Source of the DNA: Micromonospora halotolerans
Lineage (GTDB): Bacteria > Actinomycetota > Actinomycetes > Mycobacteriales > Micromonosporaceae
Direction: 5' to 3'
Length of the DNA: 64,000 nucleotides
NCBI RefSeq assembly: GCF_032108445.1
Contig: NZ_CP134876.1
Location: forward strand, 5,084,001-5,148,000
Shown here: positions 20,488-36,178 of the stretch, piece by piece
Position numbering within the stretch: the stretch's first letter is position 1
Layout of the letters: the number at the start of each line of letters is the position of its first letter
Translations under genes and position numbers: made by a program
Notes under the pieces: model-generated
Told to the model about the DNA's origin: nothing
What the model saw: only the letters and a program-made list of their open reading frames with translations
The model's database searches: none

Positions 20488-21258
20488 TCACCGGGCCCGC
20501 GTGGTGGGGCGGGAGGTGGTCGCGGTGGTCCGGACGGCCTTGACGATGGCGGGGATCGAGCCGATCAGCAGGACCAGCGCCCAGATCAGCGCCACCACGG
20601 CGAACACGACCGCGCCCAGGTCGTCGGTGATGCTGACCAGGATCCCCGGCACGAACTGGTGCAGGAACTCCAGCACCACCGTGCACAGCAGGGTGGTCAG
20701 CGCCAGCAGCGCGAGCCCCTTGTTCTGCAGGAAGCGCGGCTGGGCGAGCAGCAGCAGCGCCGCCCAGACCAGCTTGAGCAGCAGCACCAGGCCGAGCAGC
20801 ACGGCGGCGTCGCCCACCGGGAAGAACCCCCACACCGCCAGGTACGCGAGCGTGCCGAACGGCGCGGCCAGGAACAGCGACACCATCACGGTCAGCTCGA
20901 CGAAGGCGACGATCAGCAGGACCAGCGACGCGAGCAGCAGCAGGATCGAGAAGACCAGGGTGGCCACCCCCTGCACCCGGCCCTGGATCCGGTCCGGCAC
21001 CACGAGGCTCAGGGCGAACAGCCCGGTGGTCCAGAGCGCCACCACGTCGACGAGCGCCAGGTGGCCGGTGCCCCGGCCGGACGGCTCGGTCACCGCGCCG
21101 ACGTCGCCCAGCTCGACGCCGAGCCGCCCGGCGCTGTCCCGCAGCGCGCCGCCGGCGTCGCCGCCGCCGGTGAGCGCCGCCGCCCCCAGCTCCAGCCCCA
21201 CGACTAGCGCGATCGCGAGCAGCGCCAGCAGCAGGAACGGTTTCCGCAGCTCACCCAT
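20488..21258 (-). CDS. Polytopic membrane protein at the end of the eCIS operon
   Basis: A 256-residue protein with roughly six to seven hydrophobic segments. The first (about 7-27) is followed by an extracytoplasmic loop of ~50 residues, then LALVDVVALWTTGLFALSLVV and a dense hydrophobic block (LLLLASLVLLIVAFVELTVMVSLFLAAPFGTLAYLAVW). The C-terminus is short, Thr/Arg-rich and cytoplasmic. ATG 21258 is preferred over an in-frame start five codons earlier. No family recognised. It is last of three membrane-associated genes downstream of the injection-system baseplate genes, on the far side of the TnpB element. Confidence 0.65.
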   Translation of the reverse strand: MGELRKPFLLLALLAIALVVGLELGAAALTGGGDAGGALRDSAGRLGVELGDVGAVTEPSGRGTGHLALVDVVALWTTGLFALSLVVPDRIQGRVQGVATLVFSILLLLASLVLLIVAFVELTVMVSLFLAAPFGTLAYLAVWGFFPVGDAAVLLGLVLLLKLVWAALLLLAQPRFLQNKGLALLALTTLLCTVVLEFLHQFVPGILVSITDDLGAVVFAVVALIWALVLLIGSIPAIVKAVRTTATTSRPTTRAR

Positions 21259-21306
21259 GGCACGCCTCCCCACCGGCCGGCTCCGGCCGGCCCGGCCCGC
21301 GTCCGG

Positions 21307-21783
21307 TCAGGACCGGGCGACGGTGACCACGCATCCGCCACCTCCCGGGCATCGCAGGGCGACCTCGGTCGCCCCGTCCACCGCCACCTTCGCCACCGCC
21401 GTGCCGTCGTCGCCGGGCGTCACCTCGTCGGTCACCGTGACGTCGGCGTCCCCGGGCGCCGGGGCGCTCACCACGAACGGCGCCCCGCTGCGCAGCACCA
21501 GGCTGCGCAGGCCGCCCGGGTCGGCCACCCGCAGCCGGCAGGCGATGCCGAAGCCGACCACCAGACCCTCGGCGGACGGGCTCGGCTCGGCGGCCGGCGG
21601 CACGCACGCCACGGTCACCGTGGCCGGGTCCACCGTGCCGGCGTTCCCGCCGAACCGGGCCAGCCAGCCGGGCCCGGCGGCCGGGTCGCCCCGGTCGTGC
21701 CGGCCGCCGCCCACCGCGACCAGGTAGAGCACCGCGAGCAGCCCGGCGAGGGCCGCCAGCAGCACCTTCTGCCGCCCGCTCAC
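21307..21783 (-). CDS. Small membrane-anchored protein, function unknown
   Basis: A 158-residue protein starting at GTG 21783, which overlaps the upstream stop (GTGA). One hydrophobic segment near residues 6-25 ([21 protein letters not shown]) anchors a soluble, beta-rich C-terminal domain of about 125 residues. That domain carries three cysteines: CVPPAA, ACRLRV and RCPGGG. The cysteines and N-terminal anchor suggest an extracytoplasmic domain. No homologous family recognised. Translational coupling to the bitopic protein upstream implies joint function. Confidence 0.6.
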
Positions 21784-22700
21784 GGCGCGAGGAGCTGGGT
21801 GAACCGGATCTGGTCGACCCCGGCGAAGTACCGGTCGGTGCCCTGCGTCCGGCTCACCGCCACCAGGGTCAGCTTGTGCGGGCCCCGAGCCAGCTCCACG
21901 GTGCCCACGTCCACGAAGTCGGTGCGCACCACCGTCGGGGTGAAGCCGAAGAAGGTGTCCCCGACCTGCCGGCCGTCCACCAGCCAGATGGTGTTCGCGT
22001 AGTCGAACGAGGTGGTGCGCACGGTGGCGAGGCGCCACGTGCCGTCGGCGGGCAGGTCCACCGAGACGGTCACCCGGTCACCCACGGCCCGACCCTGGAA
22101 GAACAGCTGGGCGTCGCCGGACCAGACCACCTCGCAGCAGTTCGGCTGGGACACCACCCGCGCGGCCGCCGCGGAGGTCGACTGCACCGTCGCGCCGGCG
22201 ACCAGGCTCTCCGCCTCCACGGTCACCACCTGGGCCCGCGGCGGGGGCGGCGGATCACCGCCGCGGGTCACCAGCCAGGCGACCACCCCGCCCACCACCA
22301 GCAGCAGCGCCGCCGCGGCCGCGAGCCACGGCCACGGCGCGCGCTTCGGGGGTACGACGGCCCGCACGTCGTACGTCACCCGGCCGCTGGACCGGGAACT
22401 CTCCTCGGGGGCGGTGTTCGCCGAGTACGCGAAGCCGCTCATGTCGTAGCGCCGGGGCGGGGTGCCGGACGGCACGGCGAGCCGGACCAGGAACGACACC
22501 GAGCCCTGCCCGGGCACCACCCGCTGCGGCTCGGCCACGGTGAACCAGCCGCGCTGGCTGCCCTCGCCGGGCGCGACGTCGAAGACCACGGTGTCCGGCG
22601 CCTCGCCCGGGTTGGAGACCGTGAAGGTCAGCTCGCCGCAGTTGCGGGCGTCCAGGGTGAACTGCTCGGCGGCGGCGACGACGGCCCATTCGGTGGTCAT
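21780..22700 (-). CDS. Bitopic membrane protein with Ig-like N-domain and CBM-like C-domain, eCIS-associated
   Basis: A 306-residue protein with no signal peptide. Residues 1-115 form a beta-rich Ig-like domain ([32 protein letters not shown]). A single membrane segment lies at about 123-145 ([16 protein letters not shown] onward). After a Pro linker the C-terminal ~150 residues look like a jelly-roll carbohydrate-binding module ([46 protein letters not shown]). The predicted topology is N-in, C-out. Similar Ig-domain proteins accompany actinobacterial contractile injection clusters. A membrane-docking role is possible by analogy to Streptomyces CIS membrane proteins, untested here. GAAGGAG precedes ATG 22700. 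Confidence 0.6.
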
Positions 22701-22718
22701 CGAACTCCTTCGTGGAGA

Positions 22719-22739
22719 CCCCTGGCTGTAGCCGTGGGG
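22719..22739 (+). repeat. Left-end subterminal hairpin of the TnpB element
   Basis: The structure is CCCC, T, GGCT-GT-AGCC, GT, GGGG, followed by AGGAA. It has the same layout and length as the hairpin at 24010-24030, with a compensatory G-C to C-G change in the stem. It lies 72 bases before the tnpB start. Confidence 0.6.
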
Positions 22740-22810
22740 AGGAAACGAGGGCCACGGCCGGCCGGCACGTCGCCCAGGTGTTCACAAGATGGTCGGCTAG
22801 GTTGTGAGGC

Positions 22811-24022
22811 ATGACCGTGAAGACGGTGAAGCGGGCGTTCAAGTACCGCTTCTACCCGACCCCGGAGCAGGCCGGCGAGCTTGCCCGGACGTTCGGGTGC
22901 GTCCGGCTGGTCTACAACATGGCGTTGCAGGCTCGCGCCGAGGCGTGGACGCTGCGCCAGGAGCGGGTCAACTACAACGCCACGTCCGTGCTGCTCACCG
23001 GTTGGAAGAAGACTGAGGAACTGGCATTCCTCAACGACGTCTCCTCCGTGCCGTTGCAACAGGCGCTGCGGCATCTGCAAGTCGCGTTCACCAACTTCTT
23101 CGCCAAACGGGCGAAGTACCCGACGTTCAAGAGCAAGAAGAAGTCCCGCCGCTCGGCGGAGTACACCACCAGCGCGTTCCGCTCGCGCGATGGTCGGCTG
23201 ACCCTGGCGAAGATGACCGCGCCCCTGCACATCGTGTGGTCGCGGCCGCTGCCCGACGGCGCGTCGCCGTCCACGGTGACCGTCTCGCAGGACGCGGCCG
23301 GACGCTGGTTCGTGTCCCTGCTCTGCGACGACGTGATCCACGCCACCCCGGCCGTCAACGCCGCTATCGGTATCGACGCCGGCCTGGACAGCCTGCTCAC
23401 CGTTTCCACCGGGGAGAAGATCACCAACCCGAAGCACGAACGCCGCGACCGGGTCGCTCTCGCCCGCGCCCAGCGCAACCTGGCAACGAAGGAGAAGGGC
23501 TCCGCGAATCGGGCGAAGGCACGGGTCAAGGTCGCCCGCGTCCACGCCCGAATCACCGACCGCAGATGGGACCACCTGCACAAGCTGACAACTCGGCTCG
23601 TTCGTGAGAACCAAACGATCGTGATCGAGGACCTGACCGTGCGAAACATGATCCGCAACCACCGCCTGGCCCGCGCCATCAGCGACGCGGCCTGGCGGCA
23701 GTTCCGCACCATGCTGGAGTACAAGGCCGACTGGCACGGCCGGAACCTGATCACGATTGATCGCTGGTTCCCGTCGTCCAAGTTGTGCTCCGCCTGCGGC
23801 GCGCTCGCCGAGAAGATGCCGCTGACCGTACGGAACTGGACATGCCGCTGTGGTACCACCCACGACCGCGACGTCAACGCGGCCATCAACATCAAGGCCG
23901 AAGGGCTTTCGGTCTCTGCCTGTGGAGGCGGTGTAAGACCTCAACGGACGAACGCCCGGACGAGGCAGTCGCCGGTGAAGCAGGAAACCCGTGGGGCGAC
24001 CCAGGGATTCCCCCGCCTTTAG
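22811..24022 (+). CDS. tnpB: TnpB RNA-guided nuclease (transposon-encoded)
   Basis: A 403-residue TnpB. The N-terminal helix-turn-helix region begins with FKYRFYPTPEQ. The RuvC-like triad is complete: D189 in GIDAGLD, E273 in IVIEDL, and D354 in DRDVNAAINI. A zinc ribbon (CSAC and CRCG) sits between the last two. Family members use an RNA made from the element's right end to cut DNA and favour element retention. All catalytic residues are intact, so the protein may be active. Its stop codon TAG lies in the loop of the right-end hairpin, so mRNA and guide RNA overlap. The C-terminal ~35 residues are basic and disordered. Confidence 0.9.
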   Translation: MTVKTVKRAFKYRFYPTPEQAGELARTFGCVRLVYNMALQARAEAWTLRQERVNYNATSVLLTGWKKTEELAFLNDVSSVPLQQALRHLQVAFTNFFAKRAKYPTFKSKKKSRRSAEYTTSAFRSRDGRLTLAKMTAPLHIVWSRPLPDGASPSTVTVSQDAAGRWFVSLLCDDVIHATPAVNAAIGIDAGLDSLLTVSTGEKITNPKHERRDRVALARAQRNLATKEKGSANRAKARVKVARVHARITDRRWDHLHKLTTRLVRENQTIVIEDLTVRNMIRNHRLARAISDAAWRQFRTMLEYKADWHGRNLITIDRWFPSSKLCSACGALAEKMPLTVRNWTCRCGTTHDRDVNAAINIKAEGLSVSACGGGVRPQRTNARTRQSPVKQETRGATQGFPRL

Positions 24023-24040
24023 GCATGGGGAGGAAGTCAA
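23920..24040 (+). ncRNA. Putative right-end guide RNA (omega/reRNA) scaffold
   Basis: TnpB scaffold RNAs derive from the 3' end of tnpB and the right end. This stretch overlaps the last codons and ends with the hairpin at 24010-24030 and GGAGGAAGTCAA. The following host bases, from 24041, would serve as guide. The 5' limit is a guess; no transcript evidence. Confidence 0.45.
24010..24030 (+). repeat. Right-end subterminal hairpin of the TnpB element
   Basis: The structure is CCCC, C, GCCT-TT-AGGC, AT, GGGG, followed by AGGAAGTCAA. It pairs in design with 22719-22739. The tnpB stop codon is within the hairpin. Confidence 0.65.
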
Positions 24041-24582
24041 GACGGCTCCTCTGACGGCTGGTCCTGGGGTTCGGGGGTCGGGTCGGTGGTGACCTCGACG
24101 GTGACCGCGGCGGGCTTCTCCGCCTCGACGATGCGGGTGACCAGGGCGAGCCGGTCGGCGGCGGCCGGCGGCACCCGGACCACCACGTGGAACGGCCGCT
24201 CGGCCGGCTCCTCCAGCACGAAGCCGGTCACCCCGGTGGCCAGCTCCAGCGCGGTGCGCATCCCGTAGGGGGTGCCCCGCCACCGGGCCAGCAGCGCGCC
24301 GTGCGCCACCAGGTCCCGCAGCCGGCCGAGCGGCAGCGGCAGCGGCGCGTCCGCCCGGGGCGCGGCGACCACGTGGTCCATGGCCACCCACCGGGTCAGG
24401 TACGCCACGAACCCGTCCGGCGTGCGGTACGGCGCGAACAGCGCGTCGACGTCGGCGAGCACCGCCTCGTCGGGGGCGTGCAGCGCCTCCATGACGTCCA
24501 GCAGCGCGCCCAGCACGCTGCCCGGGCCGGCGGCCCGCTGGTACGCGGCCGGCAGCAGCCGCTCAATCGCCGCTCGGCGCAT
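24037..24582 (-). CDS. eCIS/phage-tail gpI-like baseplate protein
   Basis: A 181-residue protein with the phage tail protein domain of P2 gpI type and of the actinobacterial injection systems (LPAAYQRAAGPGSVLGALLDVMEALHAP, RTPDGFVAYLTRWVAMDHV, RWRGTPYGMRTALELATGV). It belongs to the baseplate wedge. ATG 24582 overlaps the wedge gene by 20 bases. The last codons run into the right end of the TnpB element, which supplies the TGA stop and part of the last codon. The native tail may thus have been altered slightly at the Pro/Glu-rich, probably dispensable end. Confidence 0.8.
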   Translation of the reverse strand: MRRAAIERLLPAAYQRAAGPGSVLGALLDVMEALHAPDEAVLADVDALFAPYRTPDGFVAYLTRWVAMDHVVAAPRADAPLPLPLGRLRDLVAHGALLARWRGTPYGMRTALELATGVTGFVLEEPAERPFHVVVRVPPAAADRLALVTRIVEAEKPAAVTVEVTTDPTPEPQDQPSEEPS

Positions 24583-27181
24583 CCTGCCGCACCACCTCGA
24601 TGTCGTGCTCGCCGGAGCAGAGCAGCCAGGTGCCGGGGACGGTGACCACGTCGGCGGTGGCCTGGTTGGCGCTGGCCGTCCAGTCCGCCGCGTCGCCGCT
24701 GCGGTACACGCCGCGCTCGCCGCCGGCCAGGACCAGCCGGGTGGCCCCACCCGGGCCGGAGGGCGCGGTGGCGGCGATCGCGTCGACCGGGACGAACCGG
24801 GTCCGGTCGCGCAGCGGCAGCCCGCAGTTGACCATCACGGGTTGCCACTGCGGCTGCGCGGCCAGGGTGTCCAGCCGGACCACCCCGCCGCTCTGCGTGG
24901 CGGCCAGCGCCAGGGTGCCGCTGAACGCCAGGTCCCGGCAGGTGCCGCCGATCCAGCCGCCCGCCACCGACTGCCACTTCACGTCGGACTCGAACAGCCG
25001 GGTGCGGTGGCAGCCCTGCCCGGGCTTCTTCGGGTCCGGCTCGCCGGCGCCGCTCCAGAGCAGGGTGGCCGGGCCGTCGTACTGCACGGCGAGCACCCGG
25101 TTGTCGACGTTGGCCAGGCCGACGTGCGCGAACGTGCCGGGGCGGCCGGCCGCGGTGGACAGGTAGACGCCGAAGCCGGCCTGCGCGGCCACCGCCACAC
25201 CGGGCGCGCCGCGCTCGGAGACGAACGACCGGACCGCGTAGAAGCCGCGGTCGGCGTCGGCCGGGTCGACGAGGATCTGCAACGGCACCGCGCCGGGCAG
25301 CAGGGACACCTCGTAGAGGCCGGCGTCGGTGGCCAGAAGCAGCGCCGCGGCGCCGTCCCGGTCGATCCAGGCCAGGTCCCGCACGCCGGAGTCCAGGTCG
25401 GTGAGCAGCGTCCACGTCTCGCCCAGGTCGGTGCTCAACCGGACCCGGGAGCCGCCCGCGTCGCGCGCGGTCACCACGGCCACCGAACCGGCCCGGGGCA
25501 CCACGCCGGGGCGGACCGGGGCGGGGGCGGGCACCACCCGGACGACGCTCTCGCCGTCGAACCGGCCGGCCGGCTCCCACCCCGCGCCCGCGTCGGTGGA
25601 GCGGAACAGCACCGGGCCGCGCCCGGCGTACCAGGTGCCCGGCTGGTACTGGTCGACGGCCACGGTCCGCACCTGCGCGTCCGGCGCCTCGTCGACCACG
25701 AACCGGACCGACTCGACGTAGCGCACGCCCGGCTCGGCGTGCTCCAGCATCCGGTACACGTTGGAGGCCCGCAGCGGCTCGCCGAACGCCCAGCCGGCCG
25801 GGTTGAGCGGGGTGGGCAGCGGGCTGAGGGTCTGGTGCAGCCGGTCGTGGACGCGCCGCCGGACCGCCTCGACGTCCTCCTCGCGGCGGACCACCACCCG
25901 GGCCCGGATGGAGACCGCCTTGTAGCGCGCCCAGCCGGCCCGCACCGCCGTGCCGAGCGCCCGCCGCCGCTCCAGGTCGGCCTCCACCCGGCGGCGCGCC
26001 TCCTCGACCTCGTGCTCCCGCAGCACCGCCACCGGCAGCCGGCCGCCCGGGCGGGCCTGCTCCGGCACGTACGGCACCAGGACCACCTCGACCTCGCCGG
26101 GTCGGGCGAAGCTGTACACCGACGCCCGGGTGAACGCCCGGGCCCGGGCCACCGCACCGGAACCGGCCGCCAGGATCTCGTAGTCCCGGGCGGTCACCGC
26201 GCGCTGCTGGGCGAAGAACTCGTACGGGCCGCGCGCCAGGGCCGACTCCATCGACTCCAGGTCCCGGCCACCGGCGGCCGGGACCGGGTTGTCCACCCGC
26301 AGCCCGGGCAGCGGGTCGCGCAGGCTGGTCAGCGTCCCGGCCGCCACGTTGCCGGCCGGCCCGCCGCCGCACCGGTACCACAGCCGGATCTGCCGCCCGG
26401 CCGGCGGCACCGCCGCCACCGGGCCGGGCGCCCCCTCGACACCCGGCCCGGCGCCGTCCGCCGGCCGCAGGTCCAGCGCGGGGGCGAAGGTGACCACCCC
26501 GGACGCGCGGTCGACCAGGTAGACCTTGGCCTGCGGGCCGACGCCGGCGAAGCTGCCCACCGGCCGCCAGACCTCGTACGTGCGGCCCTCGTGCTCCCGG
26601 GCGGCCGCGCCCAGCTCCACCGACCCGGCCGGCACCTCCACCCCGAGCAGCAGGTCCAGCGCCTCGGTGGTCCGGGTCAGCGGCGCGCGGGCCGCGCGGA
26701 ACACCTGCCCGGCCTGCCCGGTGCCGGTGCCCAGCAGCTCCGCCTCGACCGGCTCGCAGTGGTGCACGCGTACCGTCACCTCGGTCTCGCCCGCGGGCAG
26801 CACGGCCGGCTCGGTGGTCACGAAGACGACCGGCCGGGGGTCGGCGCCCCGGGCGGCGGCGACCCGGGTGCCGGCCGGGACGCGGACCGCGCCCCGGTCC
26901 GCGCCGGTCCGGGTGAAGCGGACATCCGCCCAGGCGGCGGCCGGCGGGTGCCGGGTCACCCCGAGCAGGTTGAGGAAGGACACGTACGCCTTCTCCGGCA
27001 ACTGGTTCAGCCGGTAGATCATCACCTCGGTGAGATAGGCGAACGCCTCCAGCAGCGCCATCCCCGGGTCGTGCGCGGAGAGGTCCGTCCAGTCCGGGCA
27101 GGACCGGCGGATCCGTTCCCGCGCCTCGGTGACCAGGTCGAGGAAGGCGCGGTCGTCCAGGTGCGGCACCGGCAGCGTCAT
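24563..27181 (-). CDS. Baseplate wedge protein (gpJ-like) fused to an Asp-box propeller-like region
   Basis: An 872-residue protein. Residues ~1-500 match putative baseplate assembly proteins of contractile injection systems (DWTDLSAHDPGMALLEAFAYLTEVMIYRLNQLPEKAYV, later ARDYEILAAGSGAVARARAF). The C-terminal ~350 residues contain Asp-box (BNR) motifs: S-T-D-x-G-x-G-W at 528-535, S-T-D-x-G-x-T-W at 583-590 and a degenerate S-G-D-A-A-D-W near 828. This implies a beta-propeller. The wedge part joins spike hub and sheath in the particle; the propeller could bind glycans, a receptor or another particle component. ATG 27181 overlaps the gp25 stop. Confidence 0.85.
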   Translation of the reverse strand: MTLPVPHLDDRAFLDLVTEARERIRRSCPDWTDLSAHDPGMALLEAFAYLTEVMIYRLNQLPEKAYVSFLNLLGVTRHPPAAAWADVRFTRTGADRGAVRVPAGTRVAAARGADPRPVVFVTTEPAVLPAGETEVTVRVHHCEPVEAELLGTGTGQAGQVFRAARAPLTRTTEALDLLLGVEVPAGSVELGAAAREHEGRTYEVWRPVGSFAGVGPQAKVYLVDRASGVVTFAPALDLRPADGAGPGVEGAPGPVAAVPPAGRQIRLWYRCGGGPAGNVAAGTLTSLRDPLPGLRVDNPVPAAGGRDLESMESALARGPYEFFAQQRAVTARDYEILAAGSGAVARARAFTRASVYSFARPGEVEVVLVPYVPEQARPGGRLPVAVLREHEVEEARRRVEADLERRRALGTAVRAGWARYKAVSIRARVVVRREEDVEAVRRRVHDRLHQTLSPLPTPLNPAGWAFGEPLRASNVYRMLEHAEPGVRYVESVRFVVDEAPDAQVRTVAVDQYQPGTWYAGRGPVLFRSTDAGAGWEPAGRFDGESVVRVVPAPAPVRPGVVPRAGSVAVVTARDAGGSRVRLSTDLGETWTLLTDLDSGVRDLAWIDRDGAAALLLATDAGLYEVSLLPGAVPLQILVDPADADRGFYAVRSFVSERGAPGVAVAAQAGFGVYLSTAAGRPGTFAHVGLANVDNRVLAVQYDGPATLLWSGAGEPDPKKPGQGCHRTRLFESDVKWQSVAGGWIGGTCRDLAFSGTLALAATQSGGVVRLDTLAAQPQWQPVMVNCGLPLRDRTRFVPVDAIAATAPSGPGGATRLVLAGGERGVYRSGDAADWTASANQATADVVTVPGTWLLCSGEHDIEVVRQDAPSGD

Positions 27182-27615
27182 GCGGGACCCTCCTCGCCGG
27201 GTTCGTCGTCGACGGGCAGCAGGTCGACGGAGAAGACCAGCTGGCCGGGGGAGAGGCTGGCCCGGACCCGGTAGTCCAGCCGGATCACCAGCCGCCACGG
27301 GTCGTCCGGGTCCGGCCCGGCGTCCACGTCGAGCACCTCGACCCGCGGCTCCCAGCGCCGGATGGCCTGCCGCACGTAGTGGATGGCCAGCCCGGCCGTG
27401 GTGTCGTCGTTGGGCGCGAAGACCAGCCGGTGCAGCCGGGAGCCGTACCCGGGGCGCATCAGCCGCTCGCCCGGCGTGGTGGACAGCAGCAGGAACAGCG
27501 CCTGGCGCACGGTCTCGTCGCCCTCGGTCATGGCCAGGCCGCCGGCGGCGGTCAGCGCGAGGCCGCCGGTGCGACCCGCGTCGAAGCCGGCGCCCACGAA
27601 CCGGAAGGCCCTCAT
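27178..27615 (-). CDS. GPW/gp25 family baseplate protein
   Basis: A 145-residue protein with the gp25 lysozyme-like fold pattern. It reads EGDETVRQALFLLLSTTPGERLMRPGYGSRLHRLVFAPND, then IHYVRQAIRRWEPRVEV and RLVIRLDYRV. In phage T4 and eCIS particles this is the baseplate component that nucleates sheath polymerisation. It starts at ATG 27615 overlapping the PAAR-like gene stop and is followed directly by the wedge gene (ATGA). Length is normal for the family. An acidic tail (VDDEPGEEGPA) ends the protein. Confidence 0.88.
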   Translation of the reverse strand: MRAFRFVGAGFDAGRTGGLALTAAGGLAMTEGDETVRQALFLLLSTTPGERLMRPGYGSRLHRLVFAPNDDTTAGLAIHYVRQAIRRWEPRVEVLDVDAGPDPDDPWRLVIRLDYRVRASLSPGQLVFSVDLLPVDDEPGEEGPA

Positions 27616-27950
27616 GCGTCCGCCCCCAGGAACGTCTGCCGCGGGTCGCGGACGGTGTGGTGGACCAGCCCGGGCGGGGTGCCGTCGGTCAGCCCGTCCA
27701 GGTGCGACAGCACCACGCGGTGGCCGTCCACCCGCAGCCAGGCGCTGTAGCCGACGGTCACCGTCAGCGTCTTCGCGCAGGGCTTGATGGTCGGCCCGTA
27801 GTTGGGGCAGGCGGTGATGTCCCGCCCCTCCGGGTCGGCCTCGACCAGCACCGGCACGCCCCGCACCGTCACCCACCGCTGCGAGGGGCGGTTGGACACC
27901 CGCCCGTCGTGGTCGCAGGTGATCAGCGAGTCGCGGTGGATCCAGCGCAT
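27612..27950 (-). CDS. PAAR-like spike tip protein
   Basis: A 112-residue small protein with HDGRVSNRPSQRWVTVRGVPVLVE and CPNYGPTIKPCAKTLTVTVGYS. The layout of short beta-hairpin repeats, with cysteines and histidine clusters that may hold a metal, resembles PAAR-like tips in eCIS (Afp10 position). It lies between the spike (VgrG-like) and gp25 genes, the expected place for the tip. The start ATG 27950 shares a base with the spike stop (TGATG). The family assignment rests on position, size and general motif layout. Confidence 0.7.
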   Translation of the reverse strand: MRWIHRDSLITCDHDGRVSNRPSQRWVTVRGVPVLVEADPEGRDITACPNYGPTIKPCAKTLTVTVGYSAWLRVDGHRVVLSHLDGLTDGTPPGLVHHTVRDPRQTFLGADA

Positions 27951-29521
27951 CAGCCACCTCCGTGGGCGCGGGCGAGGGTACGGGCCTGGGCGGCGGCGGT
28001 CTCGGCGTCCTCGGCCGCCTCCGCCTGCAGGAAGTCGACGGTGCGGGCGCGCACCACCATGGCCCGGCCCGGCGCGGAGAGCACCAGGTCGCCGGCCGCG
28101 TGCACGGTGGTCAGCTCGGGGCGCAGCTCGACGAAGCTGCCGCCGTCGGTGGCCAGGCGCAGGCTGCGCCCGTCGTCGTCGATGACGATCGACTGCCCGG
28201 TGCCGGTCCGCATCGACCAGCGCCGGGACCGGCCGGACACGATCCCCGCGTCGTACGGCTCGACCGCGCCGAACAGCGAGCCGAGCACGACGCCCGAGGC
28301 GGGCTCGCCGCCGGGCAGCGCCACGAGCACGGTGTCCTCCGGGTCGGGCAGCGCCACGATGCCCTTGCCCCGGCCCGCGCCCGGGCAGAGCACGGCGAGC
28401 CAGCCGGCGTCCAGGTCCCCGTACGCGGGCAGGGTCACCCGGGCCCGGCCCAGCCCGTCCGGGTCGTCCACGTCGGTGACCGTGCCGAGGGTGACCGTGG
28501 CCGCGACGGGCGCGGCGGCCGGCGGCGGTCCGGGTGGGACGGTGGAGAAGCGGGTCAGGTGCCCGTTCGCGTCGAGGGTGTGCACCACCTCGGTGAGCAC
28601 GTACACGCCCGCGACCGGCTCGGGCACGCCGGTCAGGGCGATCCGCCGGCCGGGGCGCAACGCCGGGTCGCCCTCGGCCGTGCCCTCGGCCGTCACCAGC
28701 GCCGCGACTCGGGCGTCCAGCCCGGCCTGGGCCAGGGCGGCCAGCTCGTCGTCGCTGCGGCCCGGCTGGTCGACGGCCGTGCGGACCGCGTCCGCGCCCA
28801 CCCCGCCCGGGTCCGGGCGCAGCGGGATGCGCCGCCCGGAGCGGGCCTCGCCGGCCTCCTGGCGCAGCGGCTCGGCGCGCTGCGGGTGCCAGCCCAGCGC
28901 GGCGCACCCGCCGCCGGCCCGGTCCAGGTTCTCCGCGATCCGCAGCGCGTGCACGCTCCCGCCGAGGGTGAGCGGGACCGGGTCGCCGTGACCGTCGAGG
29001 GTCAGCAGGCGCAGCCGGTCGCCCTCGACGGTCAGGTGCAGGCCGGCCCGGCCGGCCACCTCGCGCAACAGCTCCAGGTCGGTGTGCCGGTGCTGGAGCA
29101 GCCGGTCCAGGCGCGGCCCGTCGGTGTCGGCGTCGACGGTGAGCCCCACGTCGGCGCAGAGCTCCCGGGCCAGCTCGGCGGCGGTCACCGACTCGAACAC
29201 CCGCAGCTCCTGCCGCTTGCGCAGCCGGTGCAGCGGGTCGTACGCCCGCAGCCGCAGCAGCGCCGCGCCGTCGCCGGCGTACTCCACCTCGACGCCGGTC
29301 ACCTCGCCGGTGAACAGGGCGTCGGGCTGGCCGTCCAGCCGCAGGTCGAGGGCGGCGCCGGGGCGTACCGGGGGGTCGAGGGCGGCGGCGCCCGGTGCGG
29401 TGGCCAGGGTGAGCTCGCACTGGGTCGGCTGGTCCAGTCGGGCGGCGACCCGGACGCCGCGCAGCCGTCCGGGGTCGGCCAGTGGGATCCCGTCGATCGT
29501 GACGGCGGCGGCCCGGATCAC
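27950..29521 (-). CDS. VgrG/late-control-D type spike protein
   Basis: A 523-residue spike. The N-terminal hub domain (gp27/late control D type) shows in YDPLHRLRKRQELRVFESVTAAELARELC and ELLREVAGRAGLHLTVEGD. The OB-fold and needle part follow as GTVTDVDDPDGLGRARVTLPAYG, LPDPEDTVLVALPGG and GVVLGSLFG. It ends in a beta-helical stretch (DDDGRSLRLATDGGSFVELRPELTTVHAAGDLVLSA) and a short Ala-rich helix. This is the central piercing spike of the injection particle. GTG 29521 overlaps the LysM-gene stop (GTGA). Confidence 0.88.
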   Translation of the reverse strand: MIRAAAVTIDGIPLADPGRLRGVRVAARLDQPTQCELTLATAPGAAALDPPVRPGAALDLRLDGQPDALFTGEVTGVEVEYAGDGAALLRLRAYDPLHRLRKRQELRVFESVTAAELARELCADVGLTVDADTDGPRLDRLLQHRHTDLELLREVAGRAGLHLTVEGDRLRLLTLDGHGDPVPLTLGGSVHALRIAENLDRAGGGCAALGWHPQRAEPLRQEAGEARSGRRIPLRPDPGGVGADAVRTAVDQPGRSDDELAALAQAGLDARVAALVTAEGTAEGDPALRPGRRIALTGVPEPVAGVYVLTEVVHTLDANGHLTRFSTVPPGPPPAAAPVAATVTLGTVTDVDDPDGLGRARVTLPAYGDLDAGWLAVLCPGAGRGKGIVALPDPEDTVLVALPGGEPASGVVLGSLFGAVEPYDAGIVSGRSRRWSMRTGTGQSIVIDDDGRSLRLATDGGSFVELRPELTTVHAAGDLVLSAPGRAMVVRARTVDFLQAEAAEDAETAAAQARTLARAHGGG

Positions 29522-30267
29522 GGCGCACCTCCGGCGTCGGCGGGGAGCGGCGCGGCGGCGGCGGTCGGCACGGCCAGGGCGGTGCCGGCCGGCACGGTCA
29601 GCGGGTCGGTGATCCGGTTGTGCTCGGCGAGCAGCCGCCAGCGCAGCGGCGAACCGAGCGCGTCGTGGGCGAGCAGGTCGAAGCGGACCCCGGACCAGCC
29701 CGGCTCGGCCGCCCCGTCGGCCGCGGCGACCACCGCCGATCCGGGCGGCACGGTCGGCGTGCTCGCCGCGGCCAGCTCCTCCTCGAAGCCCGCCCGGGCC
29801 GCCTCGGCGGTCTCGGCCACCCGGACCAGCTTGAGCCGCAGCCAGGAACGGCGCGGGGTGCCGGTGAGGGTGAACGCGTCGAAGCGCTCCGCGATGGCCA
29901 CGATGACGCCGGGCACGTTCCAGGTCTTGCCCCACACCAGCCGGATCAGCGGAGGCCGCAGCCAGCCGTGCTCGGTCGCGGAGTTCTCGGCCAGCATCCA
30001 CAGCGGACGGGTGAGCGCGCGGACGTCCTCGGGGCGTACCGGGGATTCCACGAAGTCGGTGTCGAAGAGCAGGTCCAGCACCAGCTCGGTCCGCCCGCCG
30101 CCGGTGAAGACCAGGGGGTCGTCGGCGCGGCCGGCCCCGGTGAGCGGTCCGCCCGGCGCCCCCCGGGGCCGTACGCCGGCCAGCCGGGTCACCTGCACGG
30201 TCTCCGGGTTGAGCAGGCAGTCCACCCGGGTGCCGGACTCGTCCACGAGGAAGGCGACGCGTTCCAT
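29518..30267 (-). CDS. LysM-containing tube-terminal/baseplate protein (Afp7/Cis7 type)
   Basis: A 249-residue protein. The N-terminal ~165 residues form the tube-initiator-like domain seen in eCIS LysM proteins (FLVDESGTRVDCLLNPETVQVTR, LVLDLLFDTDFVESPVRPEDVRALTRPL, WNVPGVIVAIAERFDAFTLTGTPRRSWLRL). A LysM-like tail (LAEHNRITDPLTVPAGTALAVP) follows. In particles of this class it links spike and inner tube. ATG 30267 overlaps the stop of the disordered protein gene by one base. The C-terminus is Ala/Pro-rich. Confidence 0.82.
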   Translation of the reverse strand: MERVAFLVDESGTRVDCLLNPETVQVTRLAGVRPRGAPGGPLTGAGRADDPLVFTGGGRTELVLDLLFDTDFVESPVRPEDVRALTRPLWMLAENSATEHGWLRPPLIRLVWGKTWNVPGVIVAIAERFDAFTLTGTPRRSWLRLKLVRVAETAEAARAGFEEELAAASTPTVPPGSAVVAAADGAAEPGWSGVRFDLLAHDALGSPLRWRLLAEHNRITDPLTVPAGTALAVPTAAAAPLPADAGGAP

Positions 30268-31928
30268 CAGTCACCCGCCTGTTCCCGGTCGAGCCGGGCC
30301 AGCCGGTCGGCGTCGCGTGCCGGGACGGCCGGCGCCCGCAGCTCCCGGTCGTCGGGCAGCGCCGGCCACGGGTCCCGTTGTGGCACGCCCGCGGCCCGGT
30401 CGCCGGCGGCGTGCGGCAGCGTCCGCCACGACCCGTCGTCGCCGGCCTCGGGCGGGAGCACTGGCCACGGCCCTGCCGCCGCAGCCGTCCACTCCCGCGT
30501 CGGCCGCCTCGCCGTGCTCGCCTCCGGGTTCGGGTGCGTTTGTTGTCGTCCCAGCGACAACAGATGCACCCGACCGTCGCCGGCGGGGGAAGCCGTCGTC
30601 CAGGCGGGGCCGAGTTCCGCTCGGTCGGCCGGACGTTCGGGCCGGGTACGGCCCGTGGCCGGGTCGGTGAGCGGGACGGCTGGCCCAGCTGCGCTGGCCG
30701 GTGCCGGGAACCGCATGGTGCGGCCGATCATTCCAGGCTCGGCTCCGCCGGCCGCGACACCGCTCCACCCCGACCGGCCGCTGCTGGAACGGCCAGGCCC
30801 GGAACCCGGTGGGGTGCCCGCCCGGCCGGCTGACGAGGCCGGCGGGGCACCGGGTCCGCCGGGCGACGATCCCCGGGGGCTGCCGGTCTGCCGGTGCGGT
30901 GAGCCGGCGTGGGCCCCGATCGCGCCGTGCGGTGATCCGGGTTGGGCGCCGATTGCGCCGTGCGGTGATCCGGGTTGGGCGCCGATCTCGACGGCCGACC
31001 AGTCCGGCGGCCCGCCGCCCTTGCCGGCCGTCCGGTGCGGCCGTGCGGCCTGACGGGACGACGAACTGCCCGGAAACGAGGCGTCGCCCCGCGACCCACC
31101 CTGGCCGGCGTCCTCGGCCGACGAGGTGTCCGTCGGTCCGACGAGTGACCCGTGCGTGGTGTCGGGCGTGGCCGACTCCCAGCCGAAGCCGAGGGGCCGG
31201 CGTCGGGCCTTGCGGTCGCCCGGCGTGAATCCGCCCCGGCCGGCGTCGCCGCCCGACGGCGCCACGCGCCCCGCGATCCCGCCCCCCGACGTGGTCGGAT
31301 ACCCCGACGTGCCCGCACCCCGCGCACCAGGGCCGGCACGCCGGCCGGAGTCGGCAAGCCCGCTGGGGCCGGGATGCCCGCCGAGGCCGGGATGCCCGCC
31401 GGGGTCACGGCGTCCGGCGATACTGGCGGCCCCGGTTCGACCGAAACTGACCCAGGCCCGGAGGCGCGACCCGGCGAAGCCCCCCGCCACCCCAGCGACC
31501 CTCGCCCCGGAGAACCTGCCTGCCTCATCGCCCCACCCGGGCAACCCGAACGCCCCCGGAACCGAAGGCCGCAACCGCAGCCCCCGCACAGACTCCCCGA
31601 CCCCAACCCCCCGACCACCGCCCTCAACCCCGCCACGTCCCACCGCCCCCTCCTCGTCGATCAAGAGGTTTGCGTCGGCGGAGGCGTCGGATCCGACGCA
31701 AACTTCTTGATCAACAGGGAAGGCGGGGGCGGGGGCGGGGTGGGGGAGGTCGTGGAGGAGGCCGGGGGCGTGGGTGGCGACCAGGTGGAGCCAGTGCTCG
31801 GGGGGTTCGCCGGGGCGGCGCGGTGCGGGCGCCTCGGCGGACGCGGTGGTGGGCCCGGTGGTGAGGCGGTCGGCGGTGGCCCGGAGCAGGCGGGCCAGCC
31901 GCTCACGCGGGCGCCGGGGCGGCGGCAC
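30267..31928 (-). CDS. Large disordered protein of the eCIS operon, function unknown
   Basis: A 553-residue Gly/Ser/Pro/Arg-rich protein starting at GTG 31928 inside the tube gene's 3' end (26-base overlap). The N-terminal ~60 residues are ordered-looking (RERLARLLRATADRLT, EHWLHLVATHAPGLLHDL). The C-terminal ~60 end in WPALPDDRELRAP...RDADRLARLDREQAGD. Genes of this type, with conserved ends and a variable disordered middle, occur between tube and LysM genes in actinobacterial clusters. The middle has three 11-residue repeats (GAIGAQPGSPH) and a peptide encoded by a 20-bp inverted repeat. The middle may have grown by insertion. Possible roles: scaffold, cargo or adaptor. Confidence 0.6.
   Translation of the reverse strand: MPPPRRPRERLARLLRATADRLTTGPTTASAEAPAPRRPGEPPEHWLHLVATHAPGLLHDLPHPAPAPAFPVDQEVCVGSDASADANLLIDEEGAVGRGGVEGGGRGVGVGESVRGLRLRPSVPGAFGLPGWGDEAGRFSGARVAGVAGGFAGSRLRAWVSFGRTGAASIAGRRDPGGHPGLGGHPGPSGLADSGRRAGPGARGAGTSGYPTTSGGGIAGRVAPSGGDAGRGGFTPGDRKARRRPLGFGWESATPDTTHGSLVGPTDTSSAEDAGQGGSRGDASFPGSSSSRQAARPHRTAGKGGGPPDWSAVEIGAQPGSPHGAIGAQPGSPHGAIGAHAGSPHRQTGSPRGSSPGGPGAPPASSAGRAGTPPGSGPGRSSSGRSGWSGVAAGGAEPGMIGRTMRFPAPASAAGPAVPLTDPATGRTRPERPADRAELGPAWTTASPAGDGRVHLLSLGRQQTHPNPEASTARRPTREWTAAAAGPWPVLPPEAGDDGSWRTLPHAAGDRAAGVPQRDPWPALPDDRELRAPAVPARDADRLARLDREQAGD
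30883..30981. repeat. 33-base tandem repeat, about three units
   Basis: Two near-identical 33-base units (30916-30948 and 30949-30981) and a more diverged one before them encode 11-residue repeats on the minus strand. One base differs between the last two units. They lie in the disordered part of the eCIS protein. Confidence 0.75.
31659..31712. repeat. 20-bp inverted repeat (REP-like) inside a coding sequence
   Basis: The arms 31659-31678 and 31693-31712 match at 19 of 20 positions around a 14-base loop, with arm core TCAAGAxGTTTGCGTC. The composition is markedly AT-richer than the surrounding gene and keeps the reading frame open. It looks like an inserted palindromic element. Confidence 0.65.
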
Positions 31929-32385
31929 CGCCGGACTCCAGTTCCAGCCCCTCGTACGCGAGGGTCAGCGCCTCGATGGCGATCTCCTGGGACAGGGTGT
32001 TCAAGTGCGCGCCCCGCCACCGGGTCGGCCACGCGTTGATCATGTTCCAGCGCAGCACCTCGGCGGTGCCGGCCGGGTCGAGCAGCACCACCGAGACGTT
32101 GCGCCGGTTCACCGTGCCCTTCGCGGCCGCGTTCACCCAGTCCCACAGCTCGCGCGACGCGGTCAGGCCGAAGTGGAGGGTGACCGGGGCGTACTCGACC
32201 TGGCCGGGGACCGCCCGGATCCGCTCGTTGCCGGCCTCCCGGTACGCCAGCGACGGTATGGCCACCTCGAAGCCGCTGACCTCGGTGAAGTGCCCGTTGG
32301 TGACGCCGTTGATGAGCAGCTTGAAGTGGTACGCCCGGTAGGGGTCGACGGGCGCGCCCGGCTGCGGGGTGGCCGTGGTGGGCAT
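31903..32385 (-). CDS. Inner tube protein (T4 gp19-like)
   Basis: A 160-residue tube subunit: DPYRAYHFKLLINGVTNGHFTEVSGFEV, VTLHFGLTASRELWDWVNAA and WRGAHLNTLSQEIAIEALTLAYEGLELE. These fit the gp19 family that builds hexameric rings of the inner tube. It lies one base from the sheath gene stop and is the only tube gene I can see in the cluster, whereas many eCIS have two or more. The C-terminus is Ala-rich and overlaps the next gene start by 26 bases. Confidence 0.88.
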   Translation of the reverse strand: MPTTATPQPGAPVDPYRAYHFKLLINGVTNGHFTEVSGFEVAIPSLAYREAGNERIRAVPGQVEYAPVTLHFGLTASRELWDWVNAAAKGTVNRRNVSVVLLDPAGTAEVLRWNMINAWPTRWRGAHLNTLSQEIAIEALTLAYEGLELESGGAAAPAPA

Positions 32386-32386
32386 G

Positions 32387-33604
32387 TCAGCCTCCGATCG
32401 TCTCGGTCTCGGTGCCGCCGGCCCACTGGCTCAGCTTGAACACCACGAACTCCGCGGGCTTGACCACCGCGATGCCGATGTGGGCCACCACCATCCCGGC
32501 GTCGCGCACGTCGGCCGGGTTGGTCTCCTCGTCGCACTTGACGAAGAACGCCTCCTCGGGCGTGCGGCCGAGCAGCGCGCCGTCCCGCCACACCCGGGTG
32601 AGGAACGCGCCGATGTCCCGCCGGATCGAGCGCCACAGGGTGTAGTCGTTCGGCTCGAACACCATCCACCGGGTGCCGCCCGCGATGGCCAGCTCGATGG
32701 CGATGGAGAGCCGCCGCACGTTCAGGTAGCGCCACTCGCTGGCCTCGGCGGCGAGCGTCCGGGCGCCCCAGAGCCGGATGCCCTCGCCGGAGAAGAAGCG
32801 GATCACGTTGACGCCCTTGGGGTTGAGCACGTCGTGCTCCGGGCGGGTGACCCGGTACGCCAGGTCCACCGCGCCGCGTACCGGCTCGTTGGCCGGCGCC
32901 TTGTGCACGCCGCGCAGCGCGTCGGTGCGGGCCCAGATGCCGGCCACGTGCCCGCTCGGCGGGGTGAGGACCAGGTCGCCGCTGAGCGGGTCGCGGACCC
33001 GGATCCAGGGGAAGTAGTACGTGGCGAAGTCCGACTGCCGGGGCCGGTCGCCGCCGGGCGGGTCGTCGTCGGGCTTCGGCGTACCCTCGGCGGGCTTGCC
33101 GGACGACGGCTTGCCGGGCGTGGCGACCCGGGTGAGCCGGGAGATGTCGGCCACCTCGGGCGGCGGGTCGCAGATCGCGACCATGGTGCGCAGCCGCTCG
33201 GCCATGCTGATGAGCGCCTCGTGTGAGACCGGGTCGTGGTACCCGGGCGCGGCCAGGATGGAGATCTCGTCGATGGCCTCCAGCAGTTGCAGGCCGCTGC
33301 GCCGCCCGCCGGTGCCGGTGAGTTGGCCACCCTCGCCGACGTTCACCACCCAGCAGCGGGTGCCGCCGTTGTCGAGGAAGCCGAAGACCGCGCGGGCCAG
33401 GGGCGTGCTCTCCAGGTGCTCGCCGTCGGCGTAGAGCCGGAGGAACTCCGACCAGCTGTTCACGGCGAGCGCCTCGTCGACGTGGGCGGCGCGGTTCGGC
33501 GCGAGCCCGACGAAGGCGGCGGTGCTCGTGCCGACCGGGCCGATCGGGCGGGCCCCGCTCGGCACCTCCTCGACATAGATGCCGGGGGAGAAGTAGGTGG
33601 GCAT
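32387..33604 (-). CDS. Contractile sheath protein
   Basis: A 405-residue tail sheath protein. The hallmark N-terminus YFSPGIYVEEVPSGARPIGPVGTSTAAFVG is followed by a mid-domain and the conserved C-terminal region (NVIRFFSGEGIRLWGARTLA, YLNVRRLSIAIELAI, ETNPADVRDAGMVVAHIGIAVVKPAEFVVFKLSQ). A Gly/Pro/Lys-rich loop near residues 165-190 is a probable surface insertion. Sheath contraction drives the inner tube outward. Only one sheath gene is present. It starts at ATG 33604 behind AAGGAGGA, the strongest ribosome-binding site in the cluster, as expected for an abundant subunit. Confidence 0.93.
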   Translation of the reverse strand: MPTYFSPGIYVEEVPSGARPIGPVGTSTAAFVGLAPNRAAHVDEALAVNSWSEFLRLYADGEHLESTPLARAVFGFLDNGGTRCWVVNVGEGGQLTGTGGRRSGLQLLEAIDEISILAAPGYHDPVSHEALISMAERLRTMVAICDPPPEVADISRLTRVATPGKPSSGKPAEGTPKPDDDPPGGDRPRQSDFATYYFPWIRVRDPLSGDLVLTPPSGHVAGIWARTDALRGVHKAPANEPVRGAVDLAYRVTRPEHDVLNPKGVNVIRFFSGEGIRLWGARTLAAEASEWRYLNVRRLSIAIELAIAGGTRWMVFEPNDYTLWRSIRRDIGAFLTRVWRDGALLGRTPEEAFFVKCDEETNPADVRDAGMVVAHIGIAVVKPAEFVVFKLSQWAGGTETETIGG

Positions 33605-33621
33605 CGGTCCTCCTTGAGGAG

Positions 33622-34302
33622 TCAGTCGGGGGCGCAGACGACGACGTGGTCTCCGTCGGCGGGGTGCAGCTCGGCGGTGTGGGTGCGGCCCCGGCCGATC
33701 AGCCGGATCCGCACCGGCCGGTCCGGGGCGTCGGGGTCGTGCGGGACGCCGACCAGCCGGAACCGGCCGGCCGCGTCGGTCTCGGTGGCCTGGGCGGTGC
33801 CGACCAGCTCGACCCGCATGGCGGCGAGCGGTTGGCGCTCCGGCCCGACCACCCGGCCGTCGAGGGTGCGCATGTCGAGCTGCCGCAGCCGCAGCGGCTG
33901 CCGCACGGGCGGCGCGGACGGCGCCGGCCGGTCGATCCGCGCCGGCACGTCGAGCAGCAGCGCGGGCCGGGGCGGCACGCCGAGGGCCCGCCAGAGCGCC
34001 GGGTCCCCGGCGGCCAGCACCACCTCGGGCTGGCCGGCCGCGGTGGCGGCGGCCAGCACCCGGTCCAGCGCCGGCAGCGCCGCCGGCCCGCCGCCGCTGA
34101 CCAGCAGCCGGACCACAAAGCGGTACGGCTCGCGCGCCCCGCCGCTGGCCGCGGTCTGCCGGGCCGGCCGCAGCTCCAGCGGCCAGACGGTGAGGCCGCC
34201 GTCGGGGTCGTCGCGGGGCGGGCCGACCGGGACGGGGTCGCCCGCCGCCCCGGTCAGCCAGGCCGCGAGGTCGCCGACGGCCGCCTCGATGGCACCGGTC
34301 AT
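33622..34302 (-). CDS. Putative eCIS cap-like protein with carboxypeptidase-regulatory-like domain
   Basis: A 226-residue protein. The N-terminal ~130 residues (AAVGDLAAWLTG, LTVWPLELRPARQ, YRFVVRLLVSGGG) are vaguely like the DUF4255/cap-type proteins of eCIS. The C-terminal ~90 residues (LDMRTLDGRVVGPERQPLAAMRVELVG, TDAAGRFRLVGVP) form a carboxypeptidase-regulatory/CnaB-like beta-sandwich. It starts at ATG 34302 overlapping the membrane protein stop and is 18 bases upstream of the sheath gene. Position just before the sheath gene fits the cap gene of related clusters, but the homology is weak to the eye. Confidence 0.6.
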   Translation of the reverse strand: MTGAIEAAVGDLAAWLTGAAGDPVPVGPPRDDPDGGLTVWPLELRPARQTAASGGAREPYRFVVRLLVSGGGPAALPALDRVLAAATAAGQPEVVLAAGDPALWRALGVPPRPALLLDVPARIDRPAPSAPPVRQPLRLRQLDMRTLDGRVVGPERQPLAAMRVELVGTAQATETDAAGRFRLVGVPHDPDAPDRPVRIRLIGRGRTHTAELHPADGDHVVVCAPD

Positions 34303-34907
34303 CGCGGCGGCGTCCCCTGGATCCGGTACGCGATGGCCTCGTTCCAGACGTGCGGGTAGACGCCGATCTCGAAGTAGCGGGTGAACCGGTTGATCGGCGC
34401 GTTGCTGTGGTCGTGCCAGAGCAGCCACACCGGGGCGATGGTGAACAGCACGTAGTTGAGCGCGACCAGCGGCAGGTAGAGCGGGCCGAGCAGCCGCGCC
34501 TGGAGGACGTGCACGTCCTCGTGCCGCTGGATGCCGAGGCTGGAGCCGGCGCAGACCGTGCCGATGGTGGTGGCGTAGCGGGGCGAGACCCCCTCGACCA
34601 CGTTGACCCGCCCGCTGCCCTGCGAGACCACCCGGTCGAGCTGGTGCCCGAAGACCAGGTGCAGGGTCAGGTAGAGCGCGCCGGTGACGGTGTTGAGCAG
34701 GCTCCAGGTGTGGTCGACCACGAAGAGGAAGATGCCCTTCGGGTCGGCGCCGTAGGTGCCGGCGGAGGCGACCGCCCAGCCGAACGGCGCGCCGACGAGC
34801 AGCCCGACGACCGCGCCGATCAGCAGACCGACGGTGCCGCCCGCCGCACCGCCGAGCACGACGCCAAGGACGATGTGGACGGCGGCGCTGATGATGCCGA
34901 GGACCAT
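34299..34907 (-). CDS. Membrane protein with Gly-zipper and HEDVH motif, eCIS operon
   Basis: A 202-residue protein with hydrophobic segments near the N-terminus (IISAAVHIVLGVVLGGAAGGTVGLLIGAVVGLLVGAPFG) and in the C-terminal half (PLYLPLVALNYVLFTIAPVWLLW). Between them is SLGIQRHEDVHVLQARLLG, which contains an HExxH sequence as in zincin peptidases, although the remaining zincin geometry is not evident. ATG 34907 is chosen for GAGAGGTGA upstream; the open frame before it is Arg-rich shadow sequence. It could be a membrane partner of the injection particle or a membrane-bound hydrolase. Confidence 0.6.
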   Translation of the reverse strand: MVLGIISAAVHIVLGVVLGGAAGGTVGLLIGAVVGLLVGAPFGWAVASAGTYGADPKGIFLFVVDHTWSLLNTVTGALYLTLHLVFGHQLDRVVSQGSGRVNVVEGVSPRYATTIGTVCAGSSLGIQRHEDVHVLQARLLGPLYLPLVALNYVLFTIAPVWLLWHDHSNAPINRFTRYFEIGVYPHVWNEAIAYRIQGTPPR

Positions 34908-34921
34908 GGGGGTCACCTCTC

Positions 34922-35266
34922 TCAGACCCAGGAGCGGATGTAGCGGGGCTCGCGGCCCTGCGCGAGCTGGGTCGGCGACGCGTTCGTCGCCTGTCGGTTG
35001 CCGGGCGGCAGCTGGTTGATGCCGAGGGCGGCGGAGAAGATGACCAGCGCGTTGAAGAACGCAATGATCCACTTTTCGGATCCCGCGTCGTCGGCGAAGG
35101 CGGCGGTCAGGTACGACAGGACGAGCGCGAAGCCCAGGGCGATCCACTTGCGCGCCTTGTCGCCGCTCGGCCCGATGAGGCCGCCGATGACGTTGGTGGC
35201 GAGCAGGGTGGCGGCGCTGGCGCCGGTGAGGCTGCCCAGGGCGGCCCAGGTGAAGAGATCGTTCAC
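34922..35266 (-). CDS. Small membrane protein, holin-like in size
   Basis: A 114-residue protein starting at GTG 35266 behind GAGGGGGAT. Three hydrophobic stretches are visible: FTWAALGSLTGASAATLLATNVIGGLIG, WIALGFALVLSYLTAAF, and WIIAFFNALVIFSAALGIN. A polar C-terminal tail of ~25 residues follows. Size and topology resemble holins or small phage membrane proteins, but no family is recognised. It is the first gene of the injection operon, 14 bases before the HEDVH membrane protein gene. Confidence 0.6.
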   Translation of the reverse strand: MNDLFTWAALGSLTGASAATLLATNVIGGLIGPSGDKARKWIALGFALVLSYLTAAFADDAGSEKWIIAFFNALVIFSAALGINQLPPGNRQATNASPTQLAQGREPRYIRSWV

Positions 35267-36150: not shown

Positions 36151-36162
36151 GGGCACAGTGTG

Positions 36163-36178
36163 TGTGATCGCCGTCACG
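36163..36178. promoter_or_regulatory. Candidate CRP/cAMP-type binding site
   Basis: TGTGATCGCCGTCACG matches the TGTGA-N6-TCACA consensus except at the last base. It lies immediately upstream of the LppM-like start, where binding would more likely repress than activate. Confidence 0.35.

Follow-up and report, generated by a model that had tools for sequence, protein, structure and literature searches.

Can a contractile injection system (CIS) be complete without an ATPase, a second tube protein or a classical tape measure? The question is raised by a 64,000-nucleotide stretch of the genome of the soil bacterium Micromonospora halotolerans (C1:5084001-5148000 of a 6.96-Mb single contig; hereafter the window), which carries a small CIS operon on the minus strand. 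A first-pass annotation had listed the genes of this operon, found neither ATPase nor tape measure, and left two explanations: that the genes are located at another place, or that the variant is a reduced one, which may be linked to the membrane or cytoplasmic. Our analysis favors, with a probability of roughly 0.6, a complete but minimal CIS of a compact subtype related to IId, which lacks the ATPase Cis15, a second tube, a fibre and a classical tape measure, and which would act in the cytoplasm or docked on the membrane, firing through the envelope of its own cell. The anatomy of the compact CIS is well supported. Membrane linkage is plausible from three conserved membrane genes and from PASTA domains in homologous proteins, and tethering and firing are what we infer.

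Anatomy of the compact operon

A sheath search of 150 genomes of the family gave matches in 82, and besides M. halotolerans 25 genomes carried a full-length compact sheath (65-97% identity). The loci of 20 of these were compared with the window. The gene order is the same in all 20, with cap, sheath, a single tube and the disordered protein followed by LysM hub, spike, PAAR-like tip, gp25, gpJ, gpI and three membrane proteins, TM306, TM158 and TM256; hub and spike were uncalled in one locus (L048) but present in L139, apparently from the same organism. The finding that the first pass had named as refuting its reading, missing genes next to the homologous clusters, turned up in none of the 20 loci. 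Fifteen genes are under purifying selection (dN/dS 0.05-0.75, window against three relatives), and most structural proteins match PHROG tail families.

Pfam bears out the main assignments of the first pass, with matches for the sheath, one gp19-type tube, a CIS_tube/LysM hub, a VgrG-like spike, gp25, gpJ and gpI at the expected places (positions are those of the window, minus strand unless noted). The contractile sheath (32387..33604; PF04984, PF17482) is compact at 405 amino acids, and its best solved relatives among the Protein Data Bank matches are the sheath chains of the Streptomyces coelicolor CIS (CIS-Sc; E 4e-105). One other genome (G112, C3:385364-386682) holds a compact-like sheath in frame-shifted pieces only, a decaying copy. 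The inner tube protein (31903..32385; PF06841, E 3e-34) is the only one in the window, as in each of the 20 relatives' loci, and scores higher with the NCBIfam model for CIS5 than with that for CIS1, both below cut-off. The Cis7-like LysM hub (29518..30267; PF19266, E 9e-12) weakly matches the LysM protein of CIS-Sc. It is followed by the Cis8-like, VgrG-like spike (27950..29521; PF05954, PF04717), the gp25-like wedge or sheath initiator (Cis9-like; 27178..27615; PF04965, E 4e-25), gpJ, and the gpI-like wedge (Cis12-like; 24037..24582; PF09684, E 3e-6). Between spike and gp25 the proposed PAAR-like tip (27612..27950, 112 amino acids) was called in 20/20 loci, but it has no match in Pfam, NCBIfam or PHROG and owes its name to position and a Cys/His pattern.

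The gpJ wedge (24563..27181; Cis11-like, 872 amino acids) has a C-terminal part overlooked by the first pass, a beta-propeller at residues ~491-845 evident from sequence or model. The propeller retains 43-98% identity over 65 of 66 rows, the remaining row (26%) reading as a frame problem, and is missing, judged by length, in eight of ten gpJ rows of the long type. A tree of the gpJ N-terminal part separates 29 compact rows from 10 long rows with a support of 1.000. Of the alignments used, A3 comprises the window and 27 of the 66 locus rows, and A4 the window and 35 of the 120 proteins listed.

The cap, suspected of being missing, is present. The gene at 33622..34302 encodes a diverged Cis16 tail terminator with a C-terminal carboxypeptidase-regulatory-like domain, supported by a profile match and a VIA-align Z score. 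It is too diverged for a Cis16 match in Pfam, and Foldseek by itself ranks CIS caps low for the model (E 4.5e-3 and 2.1e-2). The absence of Cis16 was rejected on the combined profile and fold comparison.

An open reading frame (ORF) missed by the first pass lies between tube and hub and overlaps both (30267..31928). It encodes a disordered protein rich in Gly, Pro, Ala and Arg, without a Pfam or PHROG family. A gene caller based on base composition skipped it, and GC-rich open frames arise cheaply. We nevertheless take it as a gene, and reject a non-coding gap, because the frame, the overlaps with its neighbors and the end motifs recur across loci. In a sample of 30 loci (L048 outside it) the frame spans 309-665 codons from stop to stop, and it is also found in distant hosts; WPxL occurs in 30/30 and an N-terminal PPxHW-type motif in 23/30, the ORF of each locus having been picked using those motifs. 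Third codon positions vary only slightly more than the others among close relatives, so the middle of the protein is under weak constraint at most. In PBSX-type tails, tape-measure genes occupy the same place. The statement that there is no tape measure holds in that no classical one was recognised, while the disordered protein stands where one would be expected. Since there is no ATPase to load cargo, this protein is probably luminal content or a length-setting factor. Pfam and PHROG scans of the operon genes recognised no tail fibre, classical tape measure or lysis gene.

Distribution of the ATPase and of the compact layout

To follow the ATPase, 36 genomes were searched with a profile made from six ATPases of the Cis15 type. 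No full-length match was found in any of the 17 genomes with compact sheaths only, the best score of 143.7 bits coming from the generic C-terminal AAA part, nor do the genes called in the window region or in the 20 relatives' loci include a Cis15-type ATPase; the reported lack of an ATPase in the cluster is thus confirmed. All 14 genomes with a long-type sheath gave a full-length Cis15 match (358-1011 bits) and a match to the cap domain Pvc16_N (PF14065), which is found in 0/17 compact-only genomes. Full-length Cis15 and Pvc16_N were also missing from four sheath-less genomes and from G136, which carries a further, 38%-identical sheath and stands outside the compact-only count. In a wider control of 50 genomes whose sheaths are all of other types, the ATPase occurred in 40; the other ten had no match at E 1e-60, some of these genomes being incomplete, and the ATPase was rejected as an absolute rule of long-type systems. 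As judged by profile matches, long-type systems usually but not always have it, and the compact type lacks it.

The polytopic membrane protein TM256 (20488..21258; 20/20 loci) serves as a marker of the compact subtype. Its profile matches in the M. halotolerans genome and in none of the 50 control genomes. A TM256-based scan of named genomes gave 143 relatives, of which 79 loci were kept; 71 of these have TM158, 70 have TM306, and in 68 gpI and gpJ lie upstream in the same orientation. Several others have the CIS genes in a tail-to-tail arrangement on the opposite strand, or are short contigs. Most hosts are Micromonospora, the genus to which the named relatives with 96-98% identity belong. 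They are joined by Hamadaea, Catellatospora, Dactylosporangium, Allorhizocola, Rhizocola, Actinopolymorpha, Microlunatus, Arthrobacter, a record named Mycobacterium sp. ST-F2, and metagenome-assembled genomes (MAGs) titled Bryobacterales, Bryobacteraceae, Anaerolineae, Aggregatilineales and Myxococcaceae, for which binning errors are possible. One Anaerolineae MAG has the full order on one contig, and it is likewise found on one stretch in Microlunatus speluncae, in Actinopolymorpha pittospori and in two other actinobacterial genomes; contig ends cut the operon in the Bryobacterales and Myxococcaceae MAGs. Because the layout recurs in such distantly related bacteria, it appears to be a subtype so far overlooked and not a damaged copy. 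The subtype list of Chen et al. 2019 may include the compact group.

Nine further single-sheath genomes from these named loci had no full-length Cis15 match (at most 73.3 bits); one of them, Catellatospora bangladeshensis, had already been counted in the first set, and another is a named Micromonospora. G551 was kept outside the nine, as its sheath (a 549-amino-acid frame, L170) may be of another type. Two genomes with a second sheath (G545 and G437) gave no full-length ATPase match, and five (G544, G549, G550, G553 and G558) have two or more sheaths together with the ATPase. A weak AAA match of 34.5 bits lies ~4 kb from TM256 in Arthrobacter (L156).

Vladimirov et al. describe the AAA+ ATPase as an invariable mark of extracellular CIS regions (PMC10020575), and the called genes of the compact operons include none; of their Pvc16_N cap the compact operons have a diverged relative by profile and fold. 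The nearest solved sheath, J protein and LysM protein are those of CIS-Sc and SLP, the IId systems of S. coelicolor and S. lividans. Both these and the compact CIS lack a fibre and a classical tape measure, as far as the former are described, and have a membrane protein gene after the baseplate genes; CIS-Sc particles are reported to be uniform in length, although their description names no tape-measure gene. In CIS-Sc there are an AAA+ ATPase (SCO4259) and two tube genes, the sheath measures 534 amino acids and the J protein, without propeller, 652; the compact type has no ATPase, one tube, a 405-amino-acid sheath and an 872-amino-acid J protein with propeller. The relation to IId is thus suggested by sheath and baseplate similarity and not by gene content. 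A related IId lineage (Roseiflexus and Deinococcota) is reported in Chloroflexota with unanchored intracellular particles, and its cluster scheme includes an ATPase gene (PMC12998442). The Streptomyces davawensis group likewise extends over distant phyla including Chloroflexota, but its defining feature is Tme, a DUF4157 effector of very large size that resembles a tape measure and lies upstream of the baseplate (PMC11126660); apart from gpJ, no called protein of the compact operons exceeds 538 amino acids, the disordered ORF being uncalled. The thylakoid-anchored CIS of Anabaena is described as held by membrane-bound tail fibres (PMC12923769), and no fibre was recognised in the compact CIS.

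Proposed docking on the cell's own membrane and rival readings

Three conserved membrane genes adjoin the baseplate genes. TM306 (21780..22700) appears to consist of an Ig-like N-terminal domain, one transmembrane helix and an extracytoplasmic domain that by eye resembles a carbohydrate-binding module (CBM); the window copy has no Pfam domain over cut-off. TM158 (21307..21783; 20/20 loci) is, by hydropathy, a signal-anchor protein with a small C-terminal domain, and TM256 is the third. Homologues of TM306 in L047, L050, L163, L164 and L168 carry wall-binding PASTA domains. Two additional TM306-like PASTA proteins, one with a LamG-type lectin domain, are encoded upstream of the cap gene at L164:14465-17874.

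CisA of S. coelicolor is a membrane protein encoded after the baseplate genes, with its N-terminus in the cytoplasm and its C-terminus outside, and is needed for firing; its predicted partner Cis11 is surface-exposed, with two copies per wedge (PMC12237407). TM306 resembles CisA in position and layout. A comparison with four CisA-like proteins of long loci gave no support for homology (hhalign P 0.3). TM306 probably tethers the compact CIS via the gpJ propeller, and a propeller-TM306 dock is the most economical reading because the contact predicted for CisA, whose gene has the equivalent position, is with Cis11, the counterpart of gpJ. The compact particle would assemble in the cytoplasm, and its gpJ propellers would bind the inner domain of TM306, so that the particle docks on the membrane of its own cell. 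TM306 would hold on to the wall on the outer side with its PASTA or CBM-like domain, and on firing the particle would pierce the envelope of the cell that made it, a course also proposed for the Streptomyces system with CisA. The suggestion of a reduced, membrane-linked or cytoplasmic variant is thus retained in part: the system is reduced as to the ATPase, and the membrane link is plausible.

Several points weigh against this cytoplasmic or membrane-docked machine. The compact CIS is known here from its genes, and no effector was identified for it. The lack of an ATPase is not unique to it, given the ten other-sheath genomes, and since the S. coelicolor system assembles without its ATPase but needs it to function (PMC10020575), a CIS without one must work differently. 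Helices and topology of the membrane proteins come from hydropathy, and TM306 has no similarity to the CisA-like proteins of long loci, which are so named by layout alone. The disordered ORF differs in length between close relatives, which counts against a strict ruler. The membrane genes of the Bryobacteraceae MAG do not share a contig with its structural genes.

The subtype is more interesting than first described in being conserved and widespread with modules of its own, and less so in that tape measure and fibre are already missing from the closest system described. The existence of a conserved family under selection but devoid of ATPase shows that such a factor for loading or activation is not indispensable to the machine, and surveys filtering on marker genes such as the ATPase may overlook it. 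Its small gene set would be suited to testing how a CIS of the cytoplasm engages the membrane of its cell, and allows one to ask whether a disordered protein can set tube length.

A bolder and distinctly tentative version sees a wall-anchored subtype of several phyla. Bitopic anchors of PASTA or CBM type would grip the gpJ propellers, the ATPase would be absent as there is no toxin to load, the disordered protein would replace a helical tape measure, and in some lineages firing would be coupled to CHAT and subtilisin-like proteases in programmed cell death.

Alternatively, the operon could encode a released R-tailocin-like particle, antibacterial or anti-eukaryotic, whose propellers are receptor-binding domains in place of fibres and which kills by cargo-free puncture. 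R-type bacteriocins are described as without Cis6 and Cis15 (PMC12210884), and beta-propellers are reported in the fibres of extracellular systems (PMC12923769). However, the propeller is conserved across hosts, unlike fast-evolving fibre tips, the operon scans recognised no lysis gene, and a membrane module is linked to the operon. We consider a released particle unlikely.

A type VI-like, contact-dependent system would use the membrane module as a trans-envelope base and fire outward through the wall at neighbors. The conserved module adjoining the baseplate genes would suit this, and PASTA domains could hold it in the wall. Hub and sheath are nevertheless nearest to CIS-Sc and not to the type VI secretion system, and a general scan of the membrane proteins, not aimed at TssJ/L/M or ClpV, gave no TssJ/L/M-type Pfam match, which makes this arrangement improbable.

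The ATPase and other parts might also be supplied in trans. M. halotolerans has one Cis15-type ATPase, outside the window, in a second CIS 1.4 Mb away (C1:6504000-6553500) that consists of two clusters ~25 kb apart: sheath, tube, Pvc16_N cap and AAA ATPase near 6.504-6.511 Mb, and LysM protein, hub, spike, PAAR, gp25 and large J-type proteins near 6.535-6.553 Mb. The idea that missing genes lie elsewhere is right for the ATPase of this strain, but that gene belongs to a separate system, and all 17 compact-only genomes and the nine more (two repeating genomes or organisms of the first set) lack full-length Cis15. Supply in trans is thereby refuted as a general rule and very unlikely overall, even if possible in this strain. 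A decaying prophage tail, to which the PHROG tail matches, a TnpB insertion inside the operon and the frame-shifted sheath of G112 might point, is scarcely credible given the purifying selection on 15 genes, the order kept in 20/20 loci and the lack of any recognised head, integrase or lysis gene in the Pfam-scanned gene set, which covers part of the window.

Accessory genes and the insertion

Upstream of the cap, three accessory membrane proteins are encoded. GlyZip (34299..34907; 11/20 relatives' loci) is a glycine-zipper membrane protein with a HEDVH motif of the HExxH type, possibly a membrane metallopeptidase; its homologues adjoin compact CIS genes in distant hosts, including L164 and L161/162. 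TM114 (34922..35266; 10/20 relatives' loci), considered holin-sized in the first pass, shows no holin mark and is, by hydropathy, a small, conserved two-helix membrane protein with no Pfam family match over cut-off. An LppM-domain lipoprotein with a C-terminal transmembrane helix (35377..36177; PF21946, E 2e-26; 11/20 relatives' loci) lies just upstream, so that the five membrane proteins counted within 20488-35266 become six.

A TPR-CHAT (caspase-like) protein adjoins the compact CIS in 8/20 family loci and two further genomes, in at least three arrangements (L047, L048, L049, L050, L051, L052, L053, L054, L173 and L158), some also with a subtilase neighbor; none was labelled in 11 long-type loci. 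With PADLOC, four window proteins had no match and the neighbors of CHAT and subtilase type only weak ones, and literature searches returned nothing pairing contractile injection with a PASTA or CHAT domain.

The remaining gene, a TnpB-type IS605 ORF on the plus strand (22811..24022; PF01385, PF07282), stands outside the machine. It lies in an insertion of ~1.3 kb (22701-24036) that parts gpI from TM306 in the window only, among 21 loci. The gap between these genes is 1336 bp in the window versus -4 to 41 bp in the 20 relatives, 14 of which have a 4-bp overlap. Both frames survive the insertion, the inserted DNA supplying the gpI stop codon and the GAAGGAG upstream of TM306.

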